Both the position numbers and the translations under genes were made by a program. From Pseudomonadota bacterium (GTDB lineage Bacteria; Pseudomonadota; Alphaproteobacteria; Acetobacterales; Acetobacteraceae), in the NCBI GenBank assembly GCA_021805545.1, contig JAJZFB010000018.1:1-43133 (forward strand): a stretch of DNA of 43,133 bases, read 5' to 3'. This document shows, one piece after another, positions 15,048-31,468 of the stretch. Under the pieces are notes generated by a model. It saw only the letters and a program-made list of their open reading frames with translations, was not told the origin of the DNA and searched no databases. How positions within the stretch are numbered: position 1 is the stretch's first letter; each line of letters begins with the position of its first letter.

Positions 15048-16238
15048 ATGGACGATAGCTACAACCCGCCCGCACGTTTCGCCACCGCGCTCGACGAGCT
15101 TCACGAGCTGGTGGCGAGGGAAGTAGGCAGCCATGATTTCGGCGGCACGGATTATCTGCCGGGGCTGCGCGTGCTGCTGCAATCCATGGATTACGACCCG
15201 CGCTTTTCCGAGCGCGGACGGCGCTATGCCTGGGGCACGGTGGTGGGCGTGCTCAAGGGCCGGGCGCAGGCCATCAAATCGATGGCCGAAAATCCGGGCT
15301 TCGACAAACATGCCATCGGCAACCCCGTGGTGATTACCGGCGTGCCGCGCACCGGCACCACGGCGCTGCACCGGCTGATGGCGGTGGATGAACGCTTCCA
15401 GGGCCTGCAAACCTGGCTGCTGGACAGCCCCATGCCCCGCCCGCCGCAAGAACGCTGGGCGGATTACCCCGGCTTCCACAAAACCGCCGCGGTGCTGGAG
15501 GCACGCTACGCCGCCGCCCCCGGCAAGCGCGCCGCGCACCACATGGCGGCGGAAGAGGTGGATGAATGCTGCCTGGTGCTGCGCCAGGGTTTCGTCTCCA
15601 ATCTGTGGAGCTGCGGCTGGTCCGCCGCCACTTACGATGCCTGGTGGCAGAGCCAGAGCGAGGCGCATTGCTACGCGCATTTCTACCGCTGCATGCAGCT
15701 TATTGGCAGCACCACGCCCGAGAAACGCTGGCTGCTGAAAAACCCTGGGCATATCGAGAATCTCGACCTGCTCTTCGCCATTTTTCCCGGCGCCAAGGTC
15801 ATCCAGACGCATCGCGACCCGGCCTTTGCCGTGCCCTCGCTCTGCGCGCTGCTCATCCAGCTTCATCCCATTATGGAAGACGGCCGCCGGCAAGAGCGCG
15901 CCCATAACATGCTGGCGCGCGAGGTGGCGAAATGGGCCAATGCGGTACGCAAGGCGCAGCGCGTGGCGCAGGCGCATCCGGGCCAGGTGCTGGACCTTGT
16001 CCATGGCGATTTCCACAGCAACCCGATGCAGGTGCTGGAACGCATCTACGATTTCATCGGCATGGACATCACCGGTGAAGCCCGCGCCGGCATGGAAAAG
16101 CGCATTGAAGAAAAACCCGAGCTGCAGCACGGCGTACACCGTTACGACGTGGCGGATTTCGGCCTGACGAAAGAAGAAATCCGTGAACGCTTCGGCGATT
16201 ATGTAGAACGGTTTAATCTCGTGAGGGAGCGCACATGA
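15048..16238 (+). CDS. PAPS-dependent sulfotransferase, copy 1
   Basis: A 396-residue enzyme of the Sulfotransfer_3-like group. The 5'-phosphosulfate loop is GVPRTGTTALHRL near residues 98-110. The 3'-phosphate motif is QTHRDPAFAVPS near 253-264. It would transfer sulfate from PAPS to a hydroxyl of a small molecule. It shares the fold and motifs with the sulfotransferase at 22023. Its ATGA overlap with the next gene implies coupled translation. No PAPS synthesis gene is in the window. Confidence 0.88.
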   Translation: MDDSYNPPARFATALDELHELVAREVGSHDFGGTDYLPGLRVLLQSMDYDPRFSERGRRYAWGTVVGVLKGRAQAIKSMAENPGFDKHAIGNPVVITGVPRTGTTALHRLMAVDERFQGLQTWLLDSPMPRPPQERWADYPGFHKTAAVLEARYAAAPGKRAAHHMAAEEVDECCLVLRQGFVSNLWSCGWSAATYDAWWQSQSEAHCYAHFYRCMQLIGSTTPEKRWLLKNPGHIENLDLLFAIFPGAKVIQTHRDPAFAVPSLCALLIQLHPIMEDGRRQERAHNMLAREVAKWANAVRKAQRVAQAHPGQVLDLVHGDFHSNPMQVLERIYDFIGMDITGEARAGMEKRIEEKPELQHGVHRYDVADFGLTKEEIRERFGDYVERFNLVRERT

Positions 16239-17251
16239 AGGCAGCCATCTATCCCGGCCAGGGTAAACGCATTTTCATTGCCGATATGCCAGACCCCACG
16301 CCGGGGCCGGATGATGTGGTCATCAAGGTGGCACGCTGCGGCGTCTGCGGCACGGATTTGTCCATGACCAAGGGCGGCATGTGGGATTATGGCGCCAACT
16401 GCCAGATCGGCCATGAATATGCCGGCGAAATCGTTGCCCTCGGCAAGACTGTGGAAGGTTTCAGGCCCGGCGAAAAAATCACCGCCGTGCCCTCGCTTTC
16501 CTGCGGCCAGTGCGAGGCCTGCAAGCATGGCAACCCGGTGCTATGCCGCAGCGCCACCGGCACCGCCATGGTGGGGTTTGCCGATTATGCGCGCATACCC
16601 GCCAGCGTGGCGGTTAAATTGCCCAATACGCTTTCCTTTACCGATGGCGCGCTCATCGAGCCGCTGGCCGTCAGCCTGTACGGCGTGCGCCATGCCGGTA
16701 TTACGCCCGGTGCGCGCGTGCTGGTGCTGGGTGGCGGCGCGGTAGCGCTTTATGCCATTTACTGGGCACGCCGTTTGGGGGCAGGGCGGATGGTTGCCAT
16801 GTCGCGCTCCGCACGGCGGCGGGATTTGTGCCTGCAAATGGGCGCGGATGAATTCATCGCCTACGGCCCCAGCGAGATTGGCGCGGTGACGGAAGCGCTG
16901 GGCGGCGCGCCGGACATTGTGTTTGAATGTGTGGGCAGCGAAGGCATGCTGGGCAAGGCCGTGATGCACGCCGCCAATTTCGGCAAAATCGTCTCGCTCG
17001 GCTTCTGCACCGCGCCAGACCCCATCATGCCCGCCATCGCCGCCTATAAATGCGTGAGCATGCAATTCCTCGTTGGCTATACCATGCGCGATTTCCTCTA
17101 TATCGCGGACCAGATGGACAAGGGCCATGCTGCCCCCAAGGCAACCGTCACCAGCGAGGCACCGCTGAGCGCCCTGCCCGAGATATTCGATAAATTGCGC
17201 GGCCCGAATGAGGAAACCAAGGTTCACATCACACCCGGCGCATGGACGTGA
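16235..17251 (+). CDS. Zinc-dependent alcohol dehydrogenase (MDR)
   Basis: A 338-residue enzyme. The catalytic-zinc cysteine lies in ARCGVCGTDL (residues 33-42), GHEYAGEIV follows near 60, and the structural-zinc cysteines are CGQCEACKHGNPVLC near 90-104. The Rossmann glycines are GGGAVALYA. It oxidises an alcohol or reduces an aldehyde/ketone. It ends the operon VOC-DUF1214-SDR-sulfotransferase-MDR, starting inside the sulfotransferase stop (ATGA). The TetR frame follows 52 bp later. Confidence 0.9.
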   Translation: MKAAIYPGQGKRIFIADMPDPTPGPDDVVIKVARCGVCGTDLSMTKGGMWDYGANCQIGHEYAGEIVALGKTVEGFRPGEKITAVPSLSCGQCEACKHGNPVLCRSATGTAMVGFADYARIPASVAVKLPNTLSFTDGALIEPLAVSLYGVRHAGITPGARVLVLGGGAVALYAIYWARRLGAGRMVAMSRSARRRDLCLQMGADEFIAYGPSEIGAVTEALGGAPDIVFECVGSEGMLGKAVMHAANFGKIVSLGFCTAPDPIMPAIAAYKCVSMQFLVGYTMRDFLYIADQMDKGHAAPKATVTSEAPLSALPEIFDKLRGPNEETKVHITPGAWT

Positions 17252-18027: not shown

Positions 18028-19701
18028 ATGAACGGATGTGACGAGGTTTACGATTTCATCGTGGTGGGCAGCGGTGCTGGCTCCATGTGCGCCGGGCTGG
18101 TCATGCGCAATGCGGGCAAGCGCGTGCTCATCATCGAGAAAACCGGGCTCATCGGCGGCACCACCTGCAAATCTGGCGGGGTGATGTGGATTCCCAACAA
18201 CCCGTTCATGCAGCGCGGCGGCGTGCCAGACAGCCCGGAGCAGGCGCTCGCCTATCTGGAGTCTGTTACCGGCGCCTCGGAAAACGCGCCCGGCGCCACG
18301 CGCGAGCGGCGGCTGACCTATATCGAGGAATCGCCGCGCATGATCGATTTCCTGCTCCAGAACGGGCTGAAGCTGGAGCGCCCCAAATACTGGCCAGATT
18401 ATTACGACGACCGCCCTGGCGGCTCCAAGGCCGGGCGCACCGTGGTGGCGCAGCTTTTCGATGCGAACGAGCTGGGCGCGTGGAAGGACAAGCTCCGCCC
18501 CGGTTTCAACCCCTACGCCGCCACGCTGGAAGAAACGCTGAGGCTGAAAACCTACAAGCAGAGCTGGGCCGGCAAAAAACTGGTGATGAAGGTGGGGCTG
18601 CGCACTGTTCTTTCCCGCCTGCTGGGCAAAAAAATCCTCTCCTGCGGCGCCGCGCTGCAAGGCCGCATGCTCCATGCCGCGCTAAAGGCGGGGGTGGAAT
18701 TCAGCCTGGACACGCCAGTGCAAGAGTTGCTGCTGGAAGATGGCGCGGTAAAAGGCGTGCTGGCGCAGAAAGACGGCAAGCCCTGGCGCGCGGGCGCGCG
18801 GCTGGGCGTGCTGGTAAATGCCGGCGGCTTTGCCCGCAACGCGGAAATGCGCGCCCAGTACCAGCCCGGCACCAATGTGGCCTGGTCCAACGCCGCGGAA
18901 GGCGATACGGGCGAGATGATCCGCGAGATGATGCGCATCGGCGCCGCCCTTGGCCAGATGGAAGAAATGGTTGGCTACCAGACCACCATGGCGCCAGGCG
19001 TGGAGAATGACTACGTAAAGCCGCCCGGCCAGAGCCTTACCGCCGCGCCACACGCCATACTCGTGGACCAGAGCGGCGTGCGCTACATGAATGAAGGCGG
19101 CTCCTACATGGCCTATTGCAAGGGTATGCTGGAGCGTAACAAAACCGTCCCCGCCGTGCCAAGCTGGGCTATTCTCGACAGCCAGTTCATGCGCAACTAC
19201 ATGCTGGGCAACACCATGCCCGGCTCTAAAAAGCCGCAAAGCTGGTACGATACGGGCTATCTGCGCAAGGCGGATACAATCGAGGAATTGGCGGCGCTGC
19301 TGAACATAGCCCCGGCCACGCTGAAAGCCACCGTGGAGCGCTTCAACGGCTTCGTTGCCAAAAATGACGATGCGGATTTCAAGCGCGGCGCGCGCGCCTA
19401 CGATAACTGGCTGGGCGACCCATACCACAAACCCTCCGCCACTTTGGGCATAATCGCCGAGGCCCCGTTCTACGCCGTGCCCATTGTACCCGGCGATGTC
19501 GGCACCTATGGCGGCGCGGTAACGGATGCGCATGGGCGCGTGCTGCGCGAGGATGGCAGCGCCATCCCGGGGCTGTATGCCACGGGTGTTTCCACCGCCA
19601 GCGTCATGGGGCGGTTCTACCCCGGTGCCGGCTGCAGCATCGGCCCGGCCATGACCTGGGGTTACCTCTCGGCGCGCCACGCGGCGGGGATAAATTCATA
19701 A
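18028..19701 (+). CDS. FAD-dependent oxidoreductase, 3-ketosteroid-delta1-dehydrogenase-like
   Basis: A 557-residue flavoprotein of the fumarate reductase/KstD superfamily. The FAD dinucleotide motif VVGSGAGSMCAGL is at residues 12-24, followed by EKTGLIGGTT and SGGVMWIPNN, as in KstD-type enzymes. The C-terminal RFYPGAGCSIGPAMTWGY places Tyr531 and Gly535 with the spacing of the KstD catalytic tyrosine/glycine pair. It may desaturate next to a ketone in a cyclic substrate. Whether the substrate is a steroid is inference. It has its own operator at 17990 and ends in a 6-bp convergent overlap with the LuxR gene. Confidence 0.88.
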   Translation: MNGCDEVYDFIVVGSGAGSMCAGLVMRNAGKRVLIIEKTGLIGGTTCKSGGVMWIPNNPFMQRGGVPDSPEQALAYLESVTGASENAPGATRERRLTYIEESPRMIDFLLQNGLKLERPKYWPDYYDDRPGGSKAGRTVVAQLFDANELGAWKDKLRPGFNPYAATLEETLRLKTYKQSWAGKKLVMKVGLRTVLSRLLGKKILSCGAALQGRMLHAALKAGVEFSLDTPVQELLLEDGAVKGVLAQKDGKPWRAGARLGVLVNAGGFARNAEMRAQYQPGTNVAWSNAAEGDTGEMIREMMRIGAALGQMEEMVGYQTTMAPGVENDYVKPPGQSLTAAPHAILVDQSGVRYMNEGGSYMAYCKGMLERNKTVPAVPSWAILDSQFMRNYMLGNTMPGSKKPQSWYDTGYLRKADTIEELAALLNIAPATLKATVERFNGFVAKNDDADFKRGARAYDNWLGDPYHKPSATLGIIAEAPFYAVPIVPGDVGTYGGAVTDAHGRVLREDGSAIPGLYATGVSTASVMGRFYPGAGCSIGPAMTWGYLSARHAAGINS

Positions 19702-20802
19702 CCTCCCGGCAATGGCCAGCACGCTGCGCAGCACAAACCGCACCAAATCCGTCTGCCCGCGCGCACCCAGCTTGGAGTATATCTTCTTCGAGTAATTGCG
19801 CGCGGTTTCCACGGTAATGCCCAGCTCGGCCGCCGCCTCGGCAATGCTCATGCCGCGGCTTAGCGCCAGGGCCAGCCGTGCCTCGCTGGGCAGCAGCAGA
19901 AACAGCTCCGCCAACTGCTCGCAGCAATCGGCGGAAGACCAGTTATCGCCATGCACATAGGCAATCGCCACCGGGTCCGGCTTGGCGGAAAGCCCGCGTT
20001 TGCGCGCGGGCATCAGCAGCATATCCAGCCATGGGTCGCGGTTGAGGATGAGCACGCGCGGGCGCGCCCGGGTATCCGCCGCCACGGCGCGCAGGGCGGC
20101 GGAAATTTCCCGTGCCAGGCCGCGCGGCTTTACCAACAGCCTGCCGCCCGCATCGCGCCCCAGCACGCCAGATTGCGCGAACAATGTTTCCGCCTGGCGG
20201 TCGCTTTCCAGCACCTGCCCCTCTTCATCCAGCGTGAACCAGCCAAAGGCGAGGCGGCGTATGGCATCGTCCGCCACGGCGGCGTTAAAACGCTCCTGCT
20301 CCAGCGCCACGAAATTGCGCAGCGCCCCGCGCAGATACGGCGCCAGCGCCTCCATCAGCGCCTCATCGGCGCGGGCAAACTCGCCCTCCCGGCGCGAAAC
20401 ATGCAGCCAGCCATTCACCCCGCTCGCCTCGCGCACGCGCATCATGCGCATCGCCGCCATGCCGCTGGGCACAATAATATCCTGGTAATAGCGCTCATGC
20501 GCCTTGTCGCCCGCGCGCAGCATATCGTGCAGCGCATAGGCACGGCCTTCCTCCAGCTCGTAGTAGGGCAGCGGGTCGGCTTCGTGCAGCTCCTCGTGGT
20601 ACAGCCGCGAGACCAGCGGCGGCGATGCGGCGCCGGCATAAAGATGCACCACCTGGTTCAGCGGCTTCCCCGGCGGGCGGAAGGTCAACGCCGTGTAATC
20701 GGCCCGCATGGCGTGGCGCAACGCCTCTAAAAACCCGCCCCATGGCGGATCCTCGAACACGCCGTCAAGCAGCGCGGGCAGCAGGTTCAAGAGCTGTTGC
20801 AT
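19696..20802 (-). CDS. LuxR-family transcriptional regulator
   Basis: A 368-residue protein. The C-terminal LuxR helix-turn-helix reads LPSEARLALALSRGMSIAEA, then LGITVETARNYSKKIYSKLG. The N-terminal ~300 residues resemble a PAS/GAF-like sensory region with no recognised autoinducer domain. ATG at 20802 is preferred over a longer frame to 21090, which only shadows the LLM gene. A GGGAGG-containing palindrome and GGTGGG lie just upstream. It is divergent from the LLM operon by 81 bp and probably controls it (inference). Confidence 0.87.
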   Translation of the reverse strand: MQQLLNLLPALLDGVFEDPPWGGFLEALRHAMRADYTALTFRPPGKPLNQVVHLYAGAASPPLVSRLYHEELHEADPLPYYELEEGRAYALHDMLRAGDKAHERYYQDIIVPSGMAAMRMMRVREASGVNGWLHVSRREGEFARADEALMEALAPYLRGALRNFVALEQERFNAAVADDAIRRLAFGWFTLDEEGQVLESDRQAETLFAQSGVLGRDAGGRLLVKPRGLAREISAALRAVAADTRARPRVLILNRDPWLDMLLMPARKRGLSAKPDPVAIAYVHGDNWSSADCCEQLAELFLLLPSEARLALALSRGMSIAEAAAELGITVETARNYSKKIYSKLGARGQTDLVRFVLRSVLAIAGRL

Positions 20803-20812
20803 GGCCCACCAT

Positions 20813-20828
20813 CCTCCCGAATGGGAGG
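20813..20828. promoter_or_regulatory. Palindrome between LuxR and LLM operon
   Basis: CCTCCC-GAAT-GGGAGG, with perfect 6-bp arms, lies 10 bp upstream of the LuxR-family start in the short divergent gap. It could be an operator. The arms resemble ribosome-binding sequence, so the symmetry may be partly coincidental. Confidence 0.4.
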
Positions 20829-20883
20829 TTTGTCCATTAAGCGGCGCGGGCATGATAAGCATAAATCCCGGAGGACCAGAATT

Positions 20884-22026
20884 TTGAGCAACGCCGCGTC
20901 CATGCCCGTTCAACCCGCTGCCTTTTTGCGCACCACGCTGCCGCTCGATCTTTCCGTTCTCCCAGCGCTGGATTCCGGGCGCTACCATTCCATCTGGCTG
21001 CCGGACCACATGGTCAGTTTCTGGCCCGAATCCATCTGGACGCCGGAATTCACCGACCTCGCCATCACCTCGCCCTCGCCACACCGGCACCTAGATGGCC
21101 TGGCCGTGGCCGCCGCCGCCGCCGTGCTGACGCAAAAAACCCCGCTCGCCACCAGCGTGGTGGATACGGTGCGCCGCCACCCCTCGCTGCTGGCGCAAAC
21201 CGCGCTCACCATCGACCACCTTGCCAAAGGCCGCTTCATCCTGGGCCTGGGCAGCGGCGAGACGGAAAACACCGTGCCCTACGGGTTCGATTTCGCCAAA
21301 CCCGTCGCGCGGTTTGAGGAATCGCTGAAAGTCATCCGCCTGCTCTGGGAAAGCGAAGGCCCGGTGGATTTTGATGGTAAATTCTACCAGCTTCATCATG
21401 CGCGGCTGGATACCGAGCCTTATAATGGCCGCTTCCCGCGCATCTGGATTGGCGCCAGCGGCCCGCGCATGCTCGACATTACGGGCCGTTACGCCGATGG
21501 CTGGTGGCCCGCCGGTGCCTGGACGCCGGAGGATTACGCCGCGAAGCTCGCCGTCATCCGCGCCGCGGCTGAGCGCGCCGGGCGCGACCCGATGGCGATT
21601 ATACCGGCCAACATCCAGACCTGCCTGATCGGCGATGATGCCGAGCTGGACGAAATCCTCAACGCCCCGCTGGTAAAGGCGCATGTGCTGCAAATTTCGT
21701 CTGAATTGCTGCGCGCCCGTGGCTTCGCCCACCCGCTGGGTGAAACCTGGAATGGCTACCAGGACATAAACCCCGCCGTGCTGCCGCGCGCACGCATTGT
21801 GGACATGCTCGGCAAGGTCACGCCGGAGATGATCATGTCCATCGTCCCCACCGGCAGCCCGAAGAAGATTGCTGTCATCATGAAGGGATTCGCCGATGCC
21901 GGGCTGCGCGTGCCGAAAATCCTCGATTATGGCGGCATGGCGGGGCTGAAATATGCCGCGCGCTCGGCGCAGAAAGTGCGCGAGACGGAGGATGAGCTGC
22001 TGCGCCTGACGGGGCAGATTCCATGA
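20884..22026 (+). CDS. LLM-class (luciferase-like) flavin-dependent monooxygenase or reductase
   Basis: A 380-residue TIM-barrel protein of the bacterial luciferase-like superfamily. LPDHMVSFWP, an SVVDTVRRHPSLLAQTALTI segment and the GRFILGLGSGE motif match the F420/FMN-dependent LLM class. The cofactor (F420 or FMN) cannot be settled by eye. TTG at 20884 sits 9 bases after GGAGG; ATG at 20902 is an alternative. It is the first gene of a five-gene operon and overlaps the sulfotransferase start (ATGA). It is not a true LuxA or LuxB. Confidence 0.88.
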   Translation: MSNAASMPVQPAAFLRTTLPLDLSVLPALDSGRYHSIWLPDHMVSFWPESIWTPEFTDLAITSPSPHRHLDGLAVAAAAAVLTQKTPLATSVVDTVRRHPSLLAQTALTIDHLAKGRFILGLGSGETENTVPYGFDFAKPVARFEESLKVIRLLWESEGPVDFDGKFYQLHHARLDTEPYNGRFPRIWIGASGPRMLDITGRYADGWWPAGAWTPEDYAAKLAVIRAAAERAGRDPMAIIPANIQTCLIGDDAELDEILNAPLVKAHVLQISSELLRARGFAHPLGETWNGYQDINPAVLPRARIVDMLGKVTPEMIMSIVPTGSPKKIAVIMKGFADAGLRVPKILDYGGMAGLKYAARSAQKVRETEDELLRLTGQIP

Positions 22027-25219: not shown

Positions 25220-25951
25220 ATGGATTACGTATTCCTGCATGGCGGCGGCCAAGGCGGCTGGGTTTGGGCCGAGACCATCGCCGCGCTAAAGCTGCAAGAT
25301 TCAGGCCCGCTCCGCACCCTGGCGCTGGATGTGCCAGGCTGCGGCGCCAAGCACGGGCGGGATACCAGCCAAACCAGCGTGGAAGACATCGCCACCGAAC
25401 TACTGGCCGATATTGAGGCCGCCGGGCTGCGCGATGTCGTCCTGGCGGGTCATTCCCAGGCTGGCTCCATCATGCCGCATATGCTCAGCGCCCGGCCAGA
25501 CCTGTTCCGCCGCGCCATCTACATCTCCTGCTCCATCCCCCAGCCCGGCCAGACGGTTATAGCCATGATGGGCAACGGTGTGCATGGCCAGAACCCCGAT
25601 GAAATCGGCTGGCCCGTGGACCCGCAGACCCACACGATGGAGCAACGCTTCAAACTGATGTTCTGCACCGGCATGGACAGCGCCACGGAAACAGCCTTCA
25701 TGAGCCGCCTGGGCGCCGATGCCTGGCCCGCACCCAGTTACACCCATACAGATTGGCGCCAGGACCAGCTTGGCCAGGTGCCCGCCAGCTATGTGCTATG
25801 CCTGCGCGATGGCATTCTGCCCATGCCCTGGCAGGAAATCTTCACGCAACGCTTCCGCACGGAACGCAGCATCTACCTGGATTGCGGGCACCAGGCCATG
25901 ACCACCCACCCCCACAGCCTGGCCGAAATCCTGCGCCACGAGGCTGCTTAA
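25220..25951 (+). CDS. Alpha/beta hydrolase
   Basis: A 243-residue small esterase-type hydrolase. The oxyanion strand FLHGGGQGGWVW opens it, the nucleophile elbow is GHSQAG near residue 77, the acid is probably the D of LRDGILPM, and the base the H of CGHQAMTTHP. It resembles the salicylate esterase/hydroxynitrile-lyase-like group. It starts 11 bp after the DUF1214-like gene and ends the LLM operon, overlapping the convergent TetR stop by 4 bp. Confidence 0.87.
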   Translation: MDYVFLHGGGQGGWVWAETIAALKLQDSGPLRTLALDVPGCGAKHGRDTSQTSVEDIATELLADIEAAGLRDVVLAGHSQAGSIMPHMLSARPDLFRRAIYISCSIPQPGQTVIAMMGNGVHGQNPDEIGWPVDPQTHTMEQRFKLMFCTGMDSATETAFMSRLGADAWPAPSYTHTDWRQDQLGQVPASYVLCLRDGILPMPWQEIFTQRFRTERSIYLDCGHQAMTTHPHSLAEILRHEAA

Positions 25952-26610
25952 CGCCGCCGCATCCCGTTCAACAGCAGCCCCACGGCAAAGCGTATGCGCG
26001 CCTCCATCTCCGCCTCGTCCAGCACATTGCCGGAAACAATAATGCGCGCCGGGCCGCTGACAACCAGGCTCAGGAAAGCCACGGCGGCGCGCTGCGGCTC
26101 GGCCACATCAATCTCACCCGTGGCATTGAAGCGCTCGAACAGCCGGCTCAGCACATCAATCACGGGACCGGCGCCCTGCTCGAATGATTCGTTGAACAAC
26201 GCGGGAAAGCGGAAGGATTGCGCGCCCAATATACGCTGCAGCTTGGTGGCCACGGGCGTGCTTATATTGGCGATACGCTGCCGCCCAATCGCCACCAGCG
26301 TCTCTTCCAGATCATCCGTCACCAGCGCCTCAATGGCTTCCCGGGGCAATGTGTAAAGCTCTATGGCGCGCCGCACGGCGGCTTTGAACAAAGCCGCCTT
26401 ATCTTCGTAATAGGCATAGACCGTGCGTTTGGACATGCCCACGCAGGTGGCAATCTCCTCCATGGTGGCCTGCTCAAACCCGCGTTCCAGAAAAACATCC
26501 AGCGCCACGGCAAGCAGCTCCTCGTGGCGCTGCGCCTGCTGCGCGCGCGTGGGGCGCCCGGCCCGCACCGCGGAAATTTTCGCGTCCTGCTGAATTCTCT
26601 TGCCCTCCAC
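25948..26610 (-). CDS. TetR-family transcriptional regulator
   Basis: A regulator of about 220 residues. Its N-terminal helix-turn-helix runs LAVALDVFLERGFEQATMEE and then CVGMSKRTVYAYYEDKAAL, followed by a TetR C-terminal helical domain. The frame is open to an ATG at 26727, but the first 39 codons would cover the promoter of the divergent LuxE-like gene. GTG at 26610 with GGGG upstream is therefore preferred. It probably regulates the LuxE/LuxC operon (inference). Confidence 0.85.
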   Translation of the reverse strand: MEGKRIQQDAKISAVRAGRPTRAQQAQRHEELLAVALDVFLERGFEQATMEEIATCVGMSKRTVYAYYEDKAALFKAAVRRAIELYTLPREAIEALVTDDLEETLVAIGRQRIANISTPVATKLQRILGAQSFRFPALFNESFEQGAGPVIDVLSRLFERFNATGEIDVAEPQRAAVAFLSLVVSGPARIIVSGNVLDEAEMEARIRFAVGLLLNGMRRR

Positions 26611-26660
26611 CCTTGTACCCCATATAATGAAACGGTCCAGTACCGCCGAGGCGGACACTG
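26600..26660 (+). promoter_or_regulatory. Promoter and operator of LuxE/LuxC-like operon
   Basis: TTGCCC (26600-26605) and TATAAT (26623-26628) are spaced by 17 bp, a good sigma-70-type pair reading rightward. Ten bases downstream is the nested dyad CAGT-A-CCGCC-GA-GGCGG-AC-ACTG (26638-26660). Its position would let the divergent TetR block transcription. This leaves a leader of roughly 130 bases before the LuxE-like ATG. Confidence 0.55.
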
Positions 26661-26768
26661 TTCCGGGAAGCAACCAGCCAGCCAAGCCTGAAAACGGCAG
26701 GGTTAACACGCGGTCACTCTCCGCCATTCAAGTAAATGACCCTAGCCCGGTCGAGAAGGAGAATTTTC

Positions 26769-28118
26769 ATGGGAAACGCAGCCGACCGCCTCACCCGCCT
26801 CGTACAAGACGAGAATCGCTACGATATTCCGCACGAAGAGGTGCGCGCCGCCCAGATCGAGGCCATGAATGAGCGCTTCCAGGAGCGCCGCGAGGCCATA
26901 AAGCTGGTCGGCCACCGCGCGAAAGAGGCCAACCTGACCGAAGTGCGCAGCTTCGAGGACATGGTGCAGCTCCTGCTCCCGCACACCGCCTATAAGAGCT
27001 ACCCGGAATCCTTCCTGGTGGGCGAAAAATGGGACCGGCTGGGCAAATGGCTGGACACGGTTGCCACCTACCGCGTGCCGCCGCAAGATCCCGCCACCAT
27101 CAACGGCATCGATGACTGGATCGCCAAGCTGGAACAGAGCGGCCATTACGTCTCCTGCTCCAGCGGCACCACCGGCAAATCCGCCATGCTCGTGGCCTCC
27201 AGGCAGGACATGGAATGGTGCAAGAAAGAAGCCGTTGCGGCCTATAGCTGGGGCTCTGGCGTAAAACCCAATAAAGACCGCCAGATGTTCGGCATGGCCC
27301 CCGTCGCCAAGGTGGCGCGTAACGATGCCACGGGCGAGGCCTATACCGAAGCCCTGCAGGACCCCAGCGCGGAGCGCTTCGCCTACCCCGTGCCTGCCAT
27401 TACCGTGGGCGGGCTTACCTCCATGGTGGTACTGCGCAAGGCCATCGCCGAGGGTACCGCAAAACCCGAGGACATAGCCAGATACGAGCAAATGTCCGCC
27501 GAGCGCCAGAAAGCCATCGACGCGGCCGTCGGCATCACCGCCCAGGCGGTGGTCGAGGCCCGGGACAAAAAGCTGCACGTCTCCGGCCTGTGGTCCGGCC
27601 TGTACGCCGTGGCCAAGGCGGTGCGCGACATGGGCTACAGCGCCAAGGACTTCAACCCGGATAACTCTATTTACGTGGGCGGCGGGCTGAAGCGCGCCAA
27701 ACTGCCGGATGATTACCGCGAATTTGTGTACGAAACCTTCAACATCCAGCCCGAGCGCAACTACCAGAACTACTCGATGCAGGAGATGCACACCGGCATG
27801 CCGCGCTGCCAGAAGGGCGGGCGCTACCATCTGCCGGCCTGGCTGGTGCCGCTGGTGCTCAACAAAGACGGCACCGCGCTGCTGCCCATCACCAAGGGCG
27901 AATATGAAGGCCGCGCCGCCTTCTTCGATCTCTCGCTCGATGGCCGCTGGGGCGGCGTGATCTCCGGTGACAAAATCTCCATCGATTTCAGCCCCTGCGC
28001 CTGCGGCGCGCGCGGCCCGTCAATCCGCGATAATGTGGTGCGCTATGCCGACCTTGAAGGCGACGACAAGATTGGCTGCGCCGGCACGGTGGATGCTTAT
28101 GTGCGAGGTGTGGCATGA
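26769..28118 (+). CDS. LuxE-like acyl-protein synthetase / PaaK-type adenylate-forming enzyme
   Basis: A 449-residue member of the LuxE family. The phosphate-binding loop SCSSGTTGKSAM lies near residues 127-138, and YQNYSMQEMHTG near 340 corresponds to the adenylate-binding motif. In luminous bacteria LuxE activates a fatty acid with ATP and passes it to the LuxC reductase. Here the acyl substrate is unknown. ATG at 26769 follows AAGGAGA. The stop overlaps the LuxC-like ATG as ATGA, the tight coupling expected for a complex. The protein is longer than classical LuxE (~370 residues). Confidence 0.87.
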   Translation: MGNAADRLTRLVQDENRYDIPHEEVRAAQIEAMNERFQERREAIKLVGHRAKEANLTEVRSFEDMVQLLLPHTAYKSYPESFLVGEKWDRLGKWLDTVATYRVPPQDPATINGIDDWIAKLEQSGHYVSCSSGTTGKSAMLVASRQDMEWCKKEAVAAYSWGSGVKPNKDRQMFGMAPVAKVARNDATGEAYTEALQDPSAERFAYPVPAITVGGLTSMVVLRKAIAEGTAKPEDIARYEQMSAERQKAIDAAVGITAQAVVEARDKKLHVSGLWSGLYAVAKAVRDMGYSAKDFNPDNSIYVGGGLKRAKLPDDYREFVYETFNIQPERNYQNYSMQEMHTGMPRCQKGGRYHLPAWLVPLVLNKDGTALLPITKGEYEGRAAFFDLSLDGRWGGVISGDKISIDFSPCACGARGPSIRDNVVRYADLEGDDKIGCAGTVDAYVRGVA

Positions 28119-29533
28119 ACGCCATTACAGATACCAAACAAGGGGGCGTGATCTCCGCGCCCTTCTTCGCCCGCGGCAAGGTTATCGAAGGCAGCGATTC
28201 GCAGCACCGCTCGCGCGATCTCGGCGTGGATTTCGTAACCCCGAAAATCAACCTGAACGAGGTGGTGCACCCGCGTACCGAAGTGCCGCCTCTGCTCAAC
28301 GTACCCGTCGCGGAGATCATCGATTTCCTCGTCGAGACCGGGCAGAAAATGCTGGCTTCGGACAATCCCTATATGCAGGAATGTTTCGACCGCATGGCCT
28401 CCACCCATATCCTGCCGCGCAGCGTGGTGGAGACCACGGCGAAACATGCCGTGGCTTACCTGAACAAAAACATCCTGATGGCCGAGCTGGAGCAGAACTT
28501 CCCCGACCCGAAGGCGCTGGATGGGTGGATCCCGAAACAGGATTTCACCGGCCGCAAGAGCTTCGTGCGCGCCTTCGCGCCGCGCCTCATCCACGTTCTG
28601 CCCGGCAATTCTCCTGGCGTGGCCGTTAAATCCGTCGCGCAGGGCGCGATGGTAAAGGGCGTCAACCTGTTCAAAATGTCCTCCGCCGACCCGTTCACCA
28701 TGGTCGCCATTCTGCGCACCATGACACTGGTGGACCCAGAGCATCCCATCGTTAAATCCATGTCCGCCGTGTATTGGCGCGGGGGCGACACCGCGACCGA
28801 GCAAGTGCTCTACCGGCCGCAATATTTCGACAAGATCGTGGCCTGGGGCGGCGGCGATGCCATCAACAATGTCATCAAATATCTCGGCCCGGGCTTCCAG
28901 CTCATCTCTTTCGACCCCAAAACCTCCATCTCCATGGTCGGGCGCGAAGCCTTCGAATCCGAAGAAACACTGGCCCTGGCGGCCGATCTGGCATCGGCGG
29001 ATGTGATGACGCTGAACCAGGAAGCCTGCGTGGCCAGCCGCTTCCAATTCGTGGAAGGCACACAAGAGCAAGTAGACCGCTTCTGCGCCGCCCTGCACAA
29101 GCGCATTGCCGAACGCGCCGCCGCCTCGGGCGATATCCGCAAGCTGGACATGGATTTGCGCGAGCAGATCGAGACCATGATGATGATGGATGATGAATAC
29201 GGCGTCTGGGGCAAACCAGACGGCAGGGGCATCGTCATCCGCTCGGAAGAGCCGGTGGATTTCCACCCCATCAACAAAACGGCCAATGTGGTGCGGGTAG
29301 ATTCGCTGGACGATGCGGTGAAATACATCAACGTCGCCACACAGACCGTGGGCTTTTACCCGTTCCACCGCATGCCCGATTACCGCGACCGCCTGGCCAG
29401 CGGCGGCGCGCAGCGCATCGTGCATCTGGGCGAAGCCGGGCCCAGCACCATCGGCAACCCGCATGACGCCATGTACCCCATGCACCGCTTCGTGCATTGG
29501 ATGGCCCATGAGGACGGGAAAATCCCGGGTTAA
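28115..29533 (+). CDS. LuxC-like acyl-CoA/acyl-protein reductase
   Basis: A 472-residue aldehyde-dehydrogenase-superfamily protein of the LuxC type. NSPGVAVKSVAQGAMVKGVN and the following FKMSSADPFT form the cofactor region. Cys305 in LNQEACVASR matches the LuxC acyl-cysteine. The family reduces an activated acyl group to an aldehyde with NADPH. No luxA, luxB or luxD of the classical type is present, so light emission is not implied. A hairpin follows at 29541. Confidence 0.9.
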   Translation: MNAITDTKQGGVISAPFFARGKVIEGSDSQHRSRDLGVDFVTPKINLNEVVHPRTEVPPLLNVPVAEIIDFLVETGQKMLASDNPYMQECFDRMASTHILPRSVVETTAKHAVAYLNKNILMAELEQNFPDPKALDGWIPKQDFTGRKSFVRAFAPRLIHVLPGNSPGVAVKSVAQGAMVKGVNLFKMSSADPFTMVAILRTMTLVDPEHPIVKSMSAVYWRGGDTATEQVLYRPQYFDKIVAWGGGDAINNVIKYLGPGFQLISFDPKTSISMVGREAFESEETLALAADLASADVMTLNQEACVASRFQFVEGTQEQVDRFCAALHKRIAERAAASGDIRKLDMDLREQIETMMMMDDEYGVWGKPDGRGIVIRSEEPVDFHPINKTANVVRVDSLDDAVKYINVATQTVGFYPFHRMPDYRDRLASGGAQRIVHLGEAGPSTIGNPHDAMYPMHRFVHWMAHEDGKIPG

Positions 29534-29540
29534 ACCATAC

Positions 29541-29569
29541 GGGGAGCGCGCGAATTTCACGCGCTCCCC
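29541..29569 (+). terminator. GC-rich hairpin after LuxC-like gene
   Basis: GGGGAGCGCG and CGCGCTCCCC form a perfect 10-bp stem with a 9-base loop, 8 bp after the stop. There is no T-run, so it may be a weak terminator or an mRNA-stabilising hairpin that lowers expression of the dioxygenase gene downstream. Confidence 0.5.
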
Positions 29570-29636
29570 GCCACAAGGGCCTAGCAGCCTTCTCCTGTCT
29601 TCGTTAAATGACATGAAAAATCCGTAGGAGACGCAC

Positions 29637-30449
29637 ATGGCCTTCATCACCAGCAATCTTTCCCCCCGCATCGGCACTCGTATCGAGACGGACCACGCCA
29701 CGCTGCTGAGCGGCGAAAAATCCGCCGGGATACGCGAGCTTCTGGAACTGCGCGGCGTTCTCATCTTCCCCGTCATAAACTTCACGGATGAAGAGCAGAT
29801 GCAATTCTCGCGCACCCTCGGCGCGCTGGTGGACCAGGGTGAAAAGGGCCTCTACAAAGTCACGCTGGATGCCAAGATAACGCCCACGGCGGAATATTTG
29901 CGCGGCACGGTGCTCTGGCATTTCGACGGCTTCAGCGACGACGTGCCGGCCCGCGCCTCAATCCTTACCGCGCGCAAAACCTCGCCCATTGGCGGGCAGA
30001 CGGAATTTGCCAACACCTACGCCGCCTACGACGACCTGCCGGAAGAGCGAAAGCAGGCCCTAAGCAAATTGCGCGTGGTGCACACCATGGCCGCCACGCA
30101 GCGCGACGTATTCCACAACGCCCCGGCGGAAATGCAGCAACGCTGGGCCAGTTTTCCGCCCAAAGTACAGCCTCTGGTCTGGACGCACCGTTCCGGCCGC
30201 AAATCGCTCCTGCTCGGCTCCAGCGCCGATTGGATAGAAGGCATGGACAAAGCCGAAGGCCGCGCCCTGCTGGATGAATTACTGGCCTGGACCACACAGC
30301 CCAAATTCGTCTACCGCCATGAATGGCAGGTGGGCGACATGGTCATCTGGGATAATTGCGGCACAATGCACCGTGTGGAAGCCTACCCCAGCGATAGCGG
30401 CCGCATGATGCACCGCACCACCCTGGTTGGCGAAGAGCCCATCGCCTGA
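29637..30449 (+). CDS. TauD/TfdA-type Fe(II)/2-oxoglutarate dioxygenase
   Basis: A 270-residue dioxygenase. The iron facial triad is His95 and Asp97 in WHFDG with His245 in MHRVEAYP; an arginine for 2-oxoglutarate follows in HRTTLVGE. It hydroxylates or oxidatively cleaves a substrate with O2 and 2-oxoglutarate, giving succinate and CO2. ATG follows GGAG. It lies 103 bp after the LuxC-like gene in the same direction, so it is likely part of that module but separated by a hairpin. Confidence 0.9.
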   Translation: MAFITSNLSPRIGTRIETDHATLLSGEKSAGIRELLELRGVLIFPVINFTDEEQMQFSRTLGALVDQGEKGLYKVTLDAKITPTAEYLRGTVLWHFDGFSDDVPARASILTARKTSPIGGQTEFANTYAAYDDLPEERKQALSKLRVVHTMAATQRDVFHNAPAEMQQRWASFPPKVQPLVWTHRSGRKSLLLGSSADWIEGMDKAEGRALLDELLAWTTQPKFVYRHEWQVGDMVIWDNCGTMHRVEAYPSDSGRMMHRTTLVGEEPIA

Positions 30450-30486: not shown

Positions 30487-31362
30487 TTAAACCCCTAATT
30501 TGGCGAGAATCGCCTCGCTCTCCTCCCATAACCTCTGCGCCGCCGTATCGTCCAGCGCCTGCGGTGCCGGGGTTTCCTCGCGCATATCGTAAAAATAGCG
30601 CCCAGCCTTGCGTCCGGCCTCCTCGCTTTCCGCCATCCACACCAGCGTGCGCGCCGGCTCATCGGGCTGGGCTGTTTGCGCATTCGCCATGTAGCTTTGC
30701 ATTGCCGCATCGCCATGGCTGGCAAAATTGCTGGCAATCCGGCCCGGATGCATGCTCTGCGCAACAACGCCATCCGCCGCCGCCCGGCGCGCCAGCGCGC
30801 GGGTAAATAGAATATTGGCCAGCTTGGCCTGGCAATAGGCACCGCCCGTGCTGAAATTGCCGAGCATGTTCAGGTCGTCCCAATTCATGCCCGGGCAAGC
30901 CATATGGCCAGAGGAGGAAACGGCAATCACCCGCACGCTGCCCGCTTGCCGCACCGCCGCCGTGCGTTTCAGCAACGGCATCAGCTCGCGCGTCAGCAAA
31001 AACGGCGCCATATGGTTCGCCGCGAACATCGCCTCCAGCTTTTCGCTGGTCATATAAAGTTTGTCGCGCACACCACCGGCATTGTTAATCAGCACATCCA
31101 GCCGGTCCGTGGCCTGTGCAATCTCTGCCGCCACGCGCTTCACATCCCGCATCTCGGTAAAATCGCCGCGCAGGAACCTCACGCTGGCCTCAGGCGCGGC
31201 AGCGGCGCGTATCTCCGCCTCAGCGGCCTGGCTGCGCGCCGCATCGCGCCCAATGCCAATCACGTTCCAACCAGAAGCAGCCAGCATGCGCGCCGTAGCT
31301 TTGCCAATACCCGCGCTGGCGCCGGTAACAACAACCACCCGGCCTTGCGTGTCCATGCTCAT
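30487..31362 (-). CDS. SDR-family oxidoreductase (retinol-dehydrogenase-like)
   Basis: A 291-residue short-chain dehydrogenase. It has GASAGIGKA near residues 15-23, NNAGG, a serine in AVSSSGHM and the catalytic YCQAK. The long form with a C-terminal extension resembles the retinol dehydrogenase/WWOX-like SDR group that acts on lipophilic alcohols. ATG at 31362 has GGGAG upstream. It is a single gene converging on the dioxygenase, with a repeat element upstream. Confidence 0.9.
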   Translation of the reverse strand: MSMDTQGRVVVVTGASAGIGKATARMLAASGWNVIGIGRDAARSQAAEAEIRAAAAPEASVRFLRGDFTEMRDVKRVAAEIAQATDRLDVLINNAGGVRDKLYMTSEKLEAMFAANHMAPFLLTRELMPLLKRTAAVRQAGSVRVIAVSSSGHMACPGMNWDDLNMLGNFSTGGAYCQAKLANILFTRALARRAAADGVVAQSMHPGRIASNFASHGDAAMQSYMANAQTAQPDEPARTLVWMAESEEAGRKAGRYFYDMREETPAPQALDDTAAQRLWEESEAILAKLGV

Positions 31363-31468
31363 CCCTGCTCTCCCAACCGTGCCGCCGGAAATCTGGCGGT
31401 ACTATCGCGTACCATATTGCAGCGCAGGTTGAAATGGGCGGCGCTCATACAGCGCCGCCCGCCACCGC

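Follow-up and report, generated by a model that had tools for sequence, protein, structure and literature searches.

What does a LuxE/LuxC-type gene pair do in a bacterium in which no luciferase is recognised? The question is raised by a 43,133-nucleotide stretch of DNA from a non-luminous soil bacterium of the Acetobacteraceae (hereafter the window), which is the entire contig C82 (JAJZFB010000018.1) in a genome of 2.79 Mb that is 97.75% complete and consists of 96 contigs. The window contains a LuxE-like gene followed by a LuxC gene, preceded by a promoter with a TetR-operator-like dyad, and its sequence supports a luciferase-free pair for acid activation and reduction. The best explanation overall, and one that we consider probable, is a TetR-repressed module for carboxylic-acid reduction. 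Its likely function would be the ATP- and NAD(P)H-dependent conversion of an acid to the aldehyde and on to the alcohol, with no luciferase involved. The recurring unit consists of TetR, LuxE, LuxC and a short-chain dehydrogenase (SDR), and a TauD dioxygenase is an accessory in few relatives. Non-luminous homologues of LuxC or LuxE are already known; apparently new here are a LuxE branch invisible to Pfam, its pairing with a LuxC branch of its own, and the conserved promoter and dyad. No description of the LuxE-like/LuxC pair was recognised in the open-licence PMC literature, searched with terms that did not include Acidocella; the main text of a paper on tomatine (PMC10653915) mentions neither 'LuxC' nor 'acyl-CoA reductase'.

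The LuxE-like and LuxC proteins

The downstream protein belongs to the LuxC family. PF05893 matches it over model positions 3-401 of 401 (E 2.3e-51) and chain 7xc6_A, the LuxC of a solved LuxC-LuxE complex, matches with E 1.2e-34; its score against the NCBIfam lux-LuxC model, 172.5 bits, lies far under the cut-off of 750. It is the single full-length LuxC found in the genome, where a second match of 210 bases (1.4e-5) lies on contig C6. Cysteine occupies position 305 in all 87 different aligned LuxC rows, which were selected for matching, over 300 positions or more, a LuxC profile made from relatives of the window. These rows include the lux operons L105 and L106, in which the aligned cysteine is that of YDQNACFSTQ. 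The acyl site of P. phosphoreum LuxC is Cys286 in YDQQACFSTQ (PMC8301110). Hence, the original prediction named the correct residue when it took Cys305 for the aligned LuxC nucleophile. A phylogeny against lux operons, which it had also proposed, separates 77 of the 87 proteins, the window LuxC among them, from L105 and L106 (branch support 99/96) and likewise from the LuxC proteins of eight PF04443 loci (99/94), in a tree that is rooted for drawing only and whose long branches leave deep placements unsure.

The upstream protein escapes the standard LuxE model: PF04443 does not match it in a single-sequence scan and gives no match when run on the whole genome. Its relatives were collected as 66 loci and set against 28 loci with PF04443 matches, which a search of 398 genomes of the phylum had found in 27; after removal of L085 (in-frame stop) from the latter and of six of 71 LuxE-like sequences of odd length, 65 and 27 sequences were compared. 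At the profile-profile level the two families match at 99.5% (hhalign, E 1.1e-22), and the best PDB profile match of the LuxE-like protein is 7xc6_E, the LuxE of the LuxC-LuxE complex (E 0.001). Thus, of the two profile searches that had been suggested, the one for LuxC succeeds outright, and the one for LuxE fails with a single sequence and succeeds between profiles. The closest named relative in the scan comes from an Acidocella metagenome-assembled genome (MAG; 86%). The start is most likely the ATG at 26769 and not 26736, because AAGGAG precedes this ATG and close homologues begin there; residue numbers used here are counted from 26736.

Residues K319 and E350 and the C-terminal Cys448 are identical in 65/65 LuxE-like and 27/27 PF04443 sequences in three MAFFT modes. 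The SSGTTG loop (142-147) is retained in 59-65 of the 65 and, allowing S/T, in 25-27 of the 27. The loop SCSSGTTGKS had been described as intact, and it is: Cys141 to Lys148 are invariant in an alignment of 28 sequences (A1), with Ser140 and Ser149 nearly so, and across the broader set of 65, 59 sequences retain Cys141 and 61 retain Lys148. In P. phosphoreum the acyl-transfer site of LuxE is likewise a C-terminal cysteine, Cys364 (PMC8301110). By homology, the gene product is a divergent LuxE and putative acyl-protein synthetase.

Two members of the PF04443 set, L072 and L073, belong to lux operons: in L105 and L106, the LuxC profile finds a match on the upstream side of LuxE. In L105, the open frames that lie between these two genes and past them agree in order and size with luxD, A, B and G, names assigned here by position.

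Gene pairing and the search for a luciferase

The LuxE-like and LuxC genes overlap by the predicted ATGA (28115-28118), and their association recurs. In 51 of the 66 loci, a LuxC gene is found no more than 1.5 kb from the LuxE-like one; of the remaining 15, three (L022, L070, L071) are cut off too early to judge. On plasmids, LuxC directly adjoins the LuxE-like gene in 17/17 records. A LuxC search of 13 genomes listed 44 matches and yielded 30 loci, all but one of which (L133) are confirmed by the LuxC model; 23 of these 29 have a LuxE-like gene in their 1.5 kb flanks, some overlapping the 66-locus set. Among 199 genomes of the family of Novosphingobium G692, 14 contain both genes, two only the LuxE-like gene (G770, G799), one only LuxC (G846) and 182 neither (Fisher p 1.6e-18); the LuxC match in G728 is a 51-residue piece. 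Among 299 genomes of the window's own order, the same two contain both, one of them being the window's own, none has one alone and 297 have neither (p 2e-5). Neither p-value allows for kinship, and both sets contain a genome that was chosen as a carrier (G692 and the window's own, respectively).

Two variations on the pairing were observed. Single frames of 822-833 aa in family f42 (L074, L075, L076, L078, L079, L080) match both the PF04443 and the LuxC profiles and are apparent natural LuxE-LuxC fusions. Eight loci (L016, L027, L034, L036, L042, L050, L051, L100) contain at least two LuxE-like matches near one LuxC, or near none in L027. This suggests several acid-specific synthetases sharing one reductase, and some, e.g., in L050 and L051, may be fragments of a single gene.

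The original prediction reported no luxAB or luxD. No luxA or luxB was recognised in the window, at whose ends the contig stops, or in the 97.75% complete genome, and a LuxD search of the genome gave no match, its controls being silent too. The genome contains seven LLM genes. No two of them are immediate neighbours, and the one closest to a true LuxA is 31% identical to it over 170 aa. The LLM-class gene of the window had been read as a loose parallel to lux components, and a degenerate or alternative lux-like system could be imagined in which its product is an aldehyde-using monooxygenase. The gene does lie on the strand of the pair, and L006 and L007 have homologues of it close to their pairs. 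Outside Acidocella-like loci the homologues are weak (24-33%; L010, L023, L071), the best NCBIfam matches are F420-type LLM families, with the listed ones all below their cut-offs, and identity to a true LuxB is 20% over 121 aa. We therefore reject the LLM protein as a luciferase, and regard a lux-like system of this kind as extremely improbable.

With the LuxC-LuxE system of luminous bacteria (7xc6), the acid-reduction pair has in common the adenylation loop, the acyl cysteine near the C-terminus of LuxE, the acyl cysteine of LuxC and the gene pairing. It differs in the lack of recognised luxD, luxA and luxB, in the order E-C, in the divergent TetR and in the SDR; moreover, the LuxE-like protein is longer (449 versus about 375 aa) and missed by Pfam LuxE, and its LuxC stands apart in the tree. 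In the non-lux PF04443 loci that were fetched, LuxC is far more divergent or none is detected in the flanks. Carboxylic acid reductase (CAR) and the combination of PaaK with an acyl-CoA reductase also use ATP-dependent activation followed by NADPH reduction, as proposed for the window module, which differs from both in comprising two separate proteins with a predicted Cys-to-Cys transfer. The mel2 locus of Mycobacterium marinum is likewise a non-luminous lux-like gene set with a LuxC homologue, but it has LuxA/B-, LuxG- and LuxH-like genes and, as its authors state, no clear LuxE (PMC1793995). Aeromonas flagellin glycosylation islands also contain luxE and luxC outside luminescence, in their case in a flagellin-glycan context (PMC7874193).

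Promoter, dyads and the proposed reaction

Upstream of the pair, TTGCCC (26600-26605), a 17-nucleotide spacer and TATAAT (26623-26628) are present as predicted, together with the dyad and the divergent TetR. The promoter pattern alone is no better than chance (1 found versus 1.0 +/- 1.0 expected). The case for it is comparative: of 44 loci, the window included, that have a divergent TetR match at most 500 bp from LuxE, 42 contain a core AA[TC]G[AG]NAC[GT], and L036 and L040 lack it; L007, L020 and L052 have TetR and fell outside this gap rule. All core loci except L061 have TTGC or TTGT at the -35 distance (41 of 42), and 38 contain a loosely defined right dyad half. Random stretches drawn from these loci contain the core in 101/5000 cases and the core with TTG[CT] in 47/5000. 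The core was defined after reading 15 loci, and among 31 others counted 29 carry it. The listed start of the TetR open reading frame (ORF) at 26727 is probably too far out, the real one being near 26610 or 26568.

A like dyad precedes the SDR gene of the window and those of L006, L007 and L008. Matches with up to three mismatches are not significant as a count in the window (6 found versus 3.3 expected). Among 39 loci examined, only the window, these three and L064 have a dyad before the SDR gene that is clear of shuffles, and in L064 it is a single dyad between divergent SDR and LuxE genes, not a second copy. In most Novosphingobium loci the SDR gene lies just beyond TetR on the same strand and would thus need no dyad of its own.

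The original prediction had made TauD the coupled partner. Of its TetR-LuxE-LuxC-TauD order, the first three members recur and the last seldom does: clustering at 35% identity over 68 sources finds the TetR family in 42, the SDR family in 37 and the TauD family in 7, counts that are lower bounds since many loci are short. TauD could still act on the substrate or product of LuxE/LuxC, e.g., by cleaving an alkyl sulfate formed by the nearby sulfotransferases. In the window (at 103 bp), L006, L007 and L008 it lies directly 3' of LuxC and shares its strand, opposite-strand homologues of 42-51% identity occur near the pair in L009, L012, L037 and L051 (and one of 25% in L069), and the sulfate-ester dioxygenases AtsK and Rv3406 are among its PDB relatives. 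These rank behind a TfdA-type enzyme, at 2.6e-18 and 5.2e-24 versus 6e-38, and a strong hairpin, which may partly separate TauD from the operon, lies between LuxC and TauD. Together with the scarcity of the family, this makes such a role improbable.

We infer the following order of reactions for the reduction module. The LuxE-like enzyme would adenylate a carboxylic acid with ATP and take the acyl group onto its own Cys448, from which it would pass to Cys305 of the partner LuxC. LuxC would then use NAD(P)H to reduce the bound acyl group, yielding the aldehyde. Aldehyde and alcohol would be interconverted by the SDR, whose gene is predicted to answer to the TetR that governs the pair; aldehyde reduction is the most likely direction, with a predicted preference for NADP. 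TetR would repress through the dyads before luxE and the SDR gene, and an acid or aldehyde would probably release it from them. If so, the reduction of acids by lux-type enzymes without luciferase would be a regulated step that recurs in metabolism, and the conserved dyad, which resembles an operator, would offer a direct way to the inducing acid.

The AlphaFold (AF2) model of the LuxE-like protein (pLDDT 83.9), with its PaaK/ANL-type adenylating fold (TM about 0.5), speaks for this scheme. Several observations weigh against it. In the model, confidence is low for the adenylation loop (144-147) and for the arm that bears Cys448 (440-460). The 50 matches listed by Foldseek are led by PaaK-type CoA ligases and do not include 7xc6_E, which keeps a CoA-ligase activity among the possibilities. 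Twelve of the 66 LuxE-like loci have at least 3.6 kb of downstream sequence with no LuxC in it, so that the two genes need not be co-transcribed; LuxC is found somewhere in 13/13 genomes searched, nine of which hold 11 of these 12 loci (the genome of L061 excluded). The operator pattern is not enriched genome-wide (17 matches versus 42 for a reversed control), and a profile of the steroid hydrolase HsaD gives five matches in the genome, none over the cut-off.

Two wider proposals were dropped on the last two results: a genome-wide regulon defined by the operator pattern, for which an exact match on contig C49 (L148) is left as possible chance, and a full pathway of steroid ring cleavage in this genome. 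The Foldseek ranking bears on a different route, in which the LuxE-like protein would be a PaaK-type acyl-CoA ligase, LuxC would reduce acyl-CoA and the intermediates would be free CoA thioesters. The closest listed solved folds are PaaK-like acyl-CoA ligases, a 2-hydroxyisobutyryl-CoA ligase is also near, and the pair has genes for a thiolase, a CoA transferase and an enoyl-CoA hydratase in its vicinity on a Sphingobium plasmid (L143, see below). Set against this, the best sequence-profile match in the PDB is a LuxE, and every LuxE-like and PF04443 sequence compared has the C-terminal acyl cysteine; we judge a route via free thioesters to be improbable.

Table 1. Features of the window. Pfam supports the TetR, TauD and LLM identities, and that of the alpha/beta hydrolase, as predicted.
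Feature	Coordinates	Strand	Basis
KstD-like FAD dehydrogenase	18028-19701		PDB 7p18, 3-oxosteroid 1-dehydrogenase, E 1.9e-90
LLM-class enzyme	20797-22026, 4.7 kb upstream of the pair	same as the pair	Pfam
TetR/AefR-like repressor, divergent	25948-26610 (ORF listed to 26727)	-	PF00440, PF14246; start codons; recurrence in sources
Sigma70-type promoter TTGCCC-N17-TATAAT with overlapping TetR-operator-like dyad TAATGAAACGGTCCAGTACC (26625-26644)	26600-26644	+	conserved core
LuxE-like acid-adenylating / putative acyl-protein synthetase, 449 aa	26769-28118 (ORF listed from 26736)	+	hhalign PF04443; 7xc6_E; AF2 fold; shared residues
LuxC-family acyl reductase, nucleophile Cys305	28115-29533	+	PF05893; 7xc6_A; Cys305 alignment
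Strong GC hairpin between LuxC and TauD, no T tract	29540-29570	+	111-nt stretch, z -3.92, 0/200 shuffles as stable
TauD/TfdA-family Fe(II)/2-oxoglutarate dioxygenase, HxD (95-97) and His245; accessory	29637-30449	+	PF02668 8.9e-57; 5bke_A, TfdA-type; motifs
SDR (GASAGIG, YCQAK), proposed aldehyde reductase / alcohol dehydrogenase	30487-31362	-	PF00106 1.9e-33; motifs; recurrence in sources
Second operator-like dyad ATATGGTACGCGATAGTACC, 2 mismatches, 36 bp before the SDR gene	31398-31417	-	like dyads before SDR in L006, L007, L008

Neighbouring genes, substrate and distribution

Upstream of the pair lie, besides the KstD-like gene, two sulfotransferase genes and a gene for a DUF1214 protein, and a gene for an EcKL-type kinase lies near the left end of the window. 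KstD homologues within 10 kb of the pair are 57-62% identical in L028, L029 and L143 and 86% in L007. Among sulfotransferase homologues, those close to the pair are good in L006, L007 and L100 (42%) and weak in L005, L018 and L040; the link of sulfotransferases to the pair is no more than suggestive. These neighbours hint at alicyclic (steroid- or terpenoid-like) catabolism. Since a KstD-like gene and sulfotransferases share the region, the acid would likely be alicyclic, terpenoid- or steroid-like, and the 'terpenoid or other hydrophobic acid' of the original prediction is compatible with both.

The module might instead be biosynthetic, making a fatty aldehyde or alcohol or a natural product rather than serving a catabolic step. 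A Pseudonocardia plasmid carries a distant pair as part of an operon-like series of genes that includes a type I polyketide synthase and a P450, and many Novosphingobium loci have a nearby gene resembling a peptide-chain release factor (cluster 6, assigned by reading alone). The KstD-like gene in the window, the KstD gene and the three CoA-related genes near the pair in L143, and the sharing of such genes by several of L020-L030 in sequence clustering argue for catabolism, and a biosynthetic role appears unlikely to us, albeit deserving of some weight. The Pseudonocardia pair, on the plasmid of an ant associate (L103, 11866-14795), would itself be a possible aldehyde-forming natural-product step.

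A more specific catabolic route can be imagined, which we offer as a speculation with a low chance of being right. A dedicated, horizontally spread LuxE/LuxC pair and SDR would reduce a hindered carboxyl on a polycyclic acid of terpenoid- or steroid-like type, and the alcohol would be esterified by the linked sulfotransferases and the EcKL-type kinase to provide a leaving group that is removed later. Such a reduce-and-conjugate route would let bacteria strip a carboxyl that is beyond the reach of beta-oxidation.

In Paraburkholderia sprentiae, one stretch contains LuxC, the LuxE-like gene, a sulfotransferase, DUF1214, an alcohol dehydrogenase, EcKL and sulfate-activation genes. A sulfotransferase gene and an alcohol dehydrogenase gene that adjoin or nearly so, with a DUF1214-like gene, were also observed as a set in the window (15048-17251), L142 (18867-22186) and L100 (5004-8378); beyond the window the sets lie on plasmids of Novosphingobium RL4 and P. 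sprentiae, that of P. sprentiae beside cysDN and cysQ.

The isolates that carry the LuxE-like branch represent two phyla or more, Pseudomonadota and Actinomycetota among them, and 16/16 annotated plasmid records label the protein 'hypothetical protein', a 17th being unannotated. LuxE-like genes also occur in records labelled Verrucomicrobia, Actinobacteria or Parafrankia (L013, L033, L037, L051, L064, L067), where binning errors may explain part of the MAG labels. The Sphingobium sp. V4 plasmid (L143), typed as conjugative, combines TetR, LuxE, LuxC, SDR and KstD with the thiolase, CoA transferase and enoyl-CoA hydratase genes. The same gene island surrounds LuxE/LuxC in Sphingobium sp. TCM1 (L028) and on this plasmid, and the near-identical protein starts of the two suggest recent mobility.

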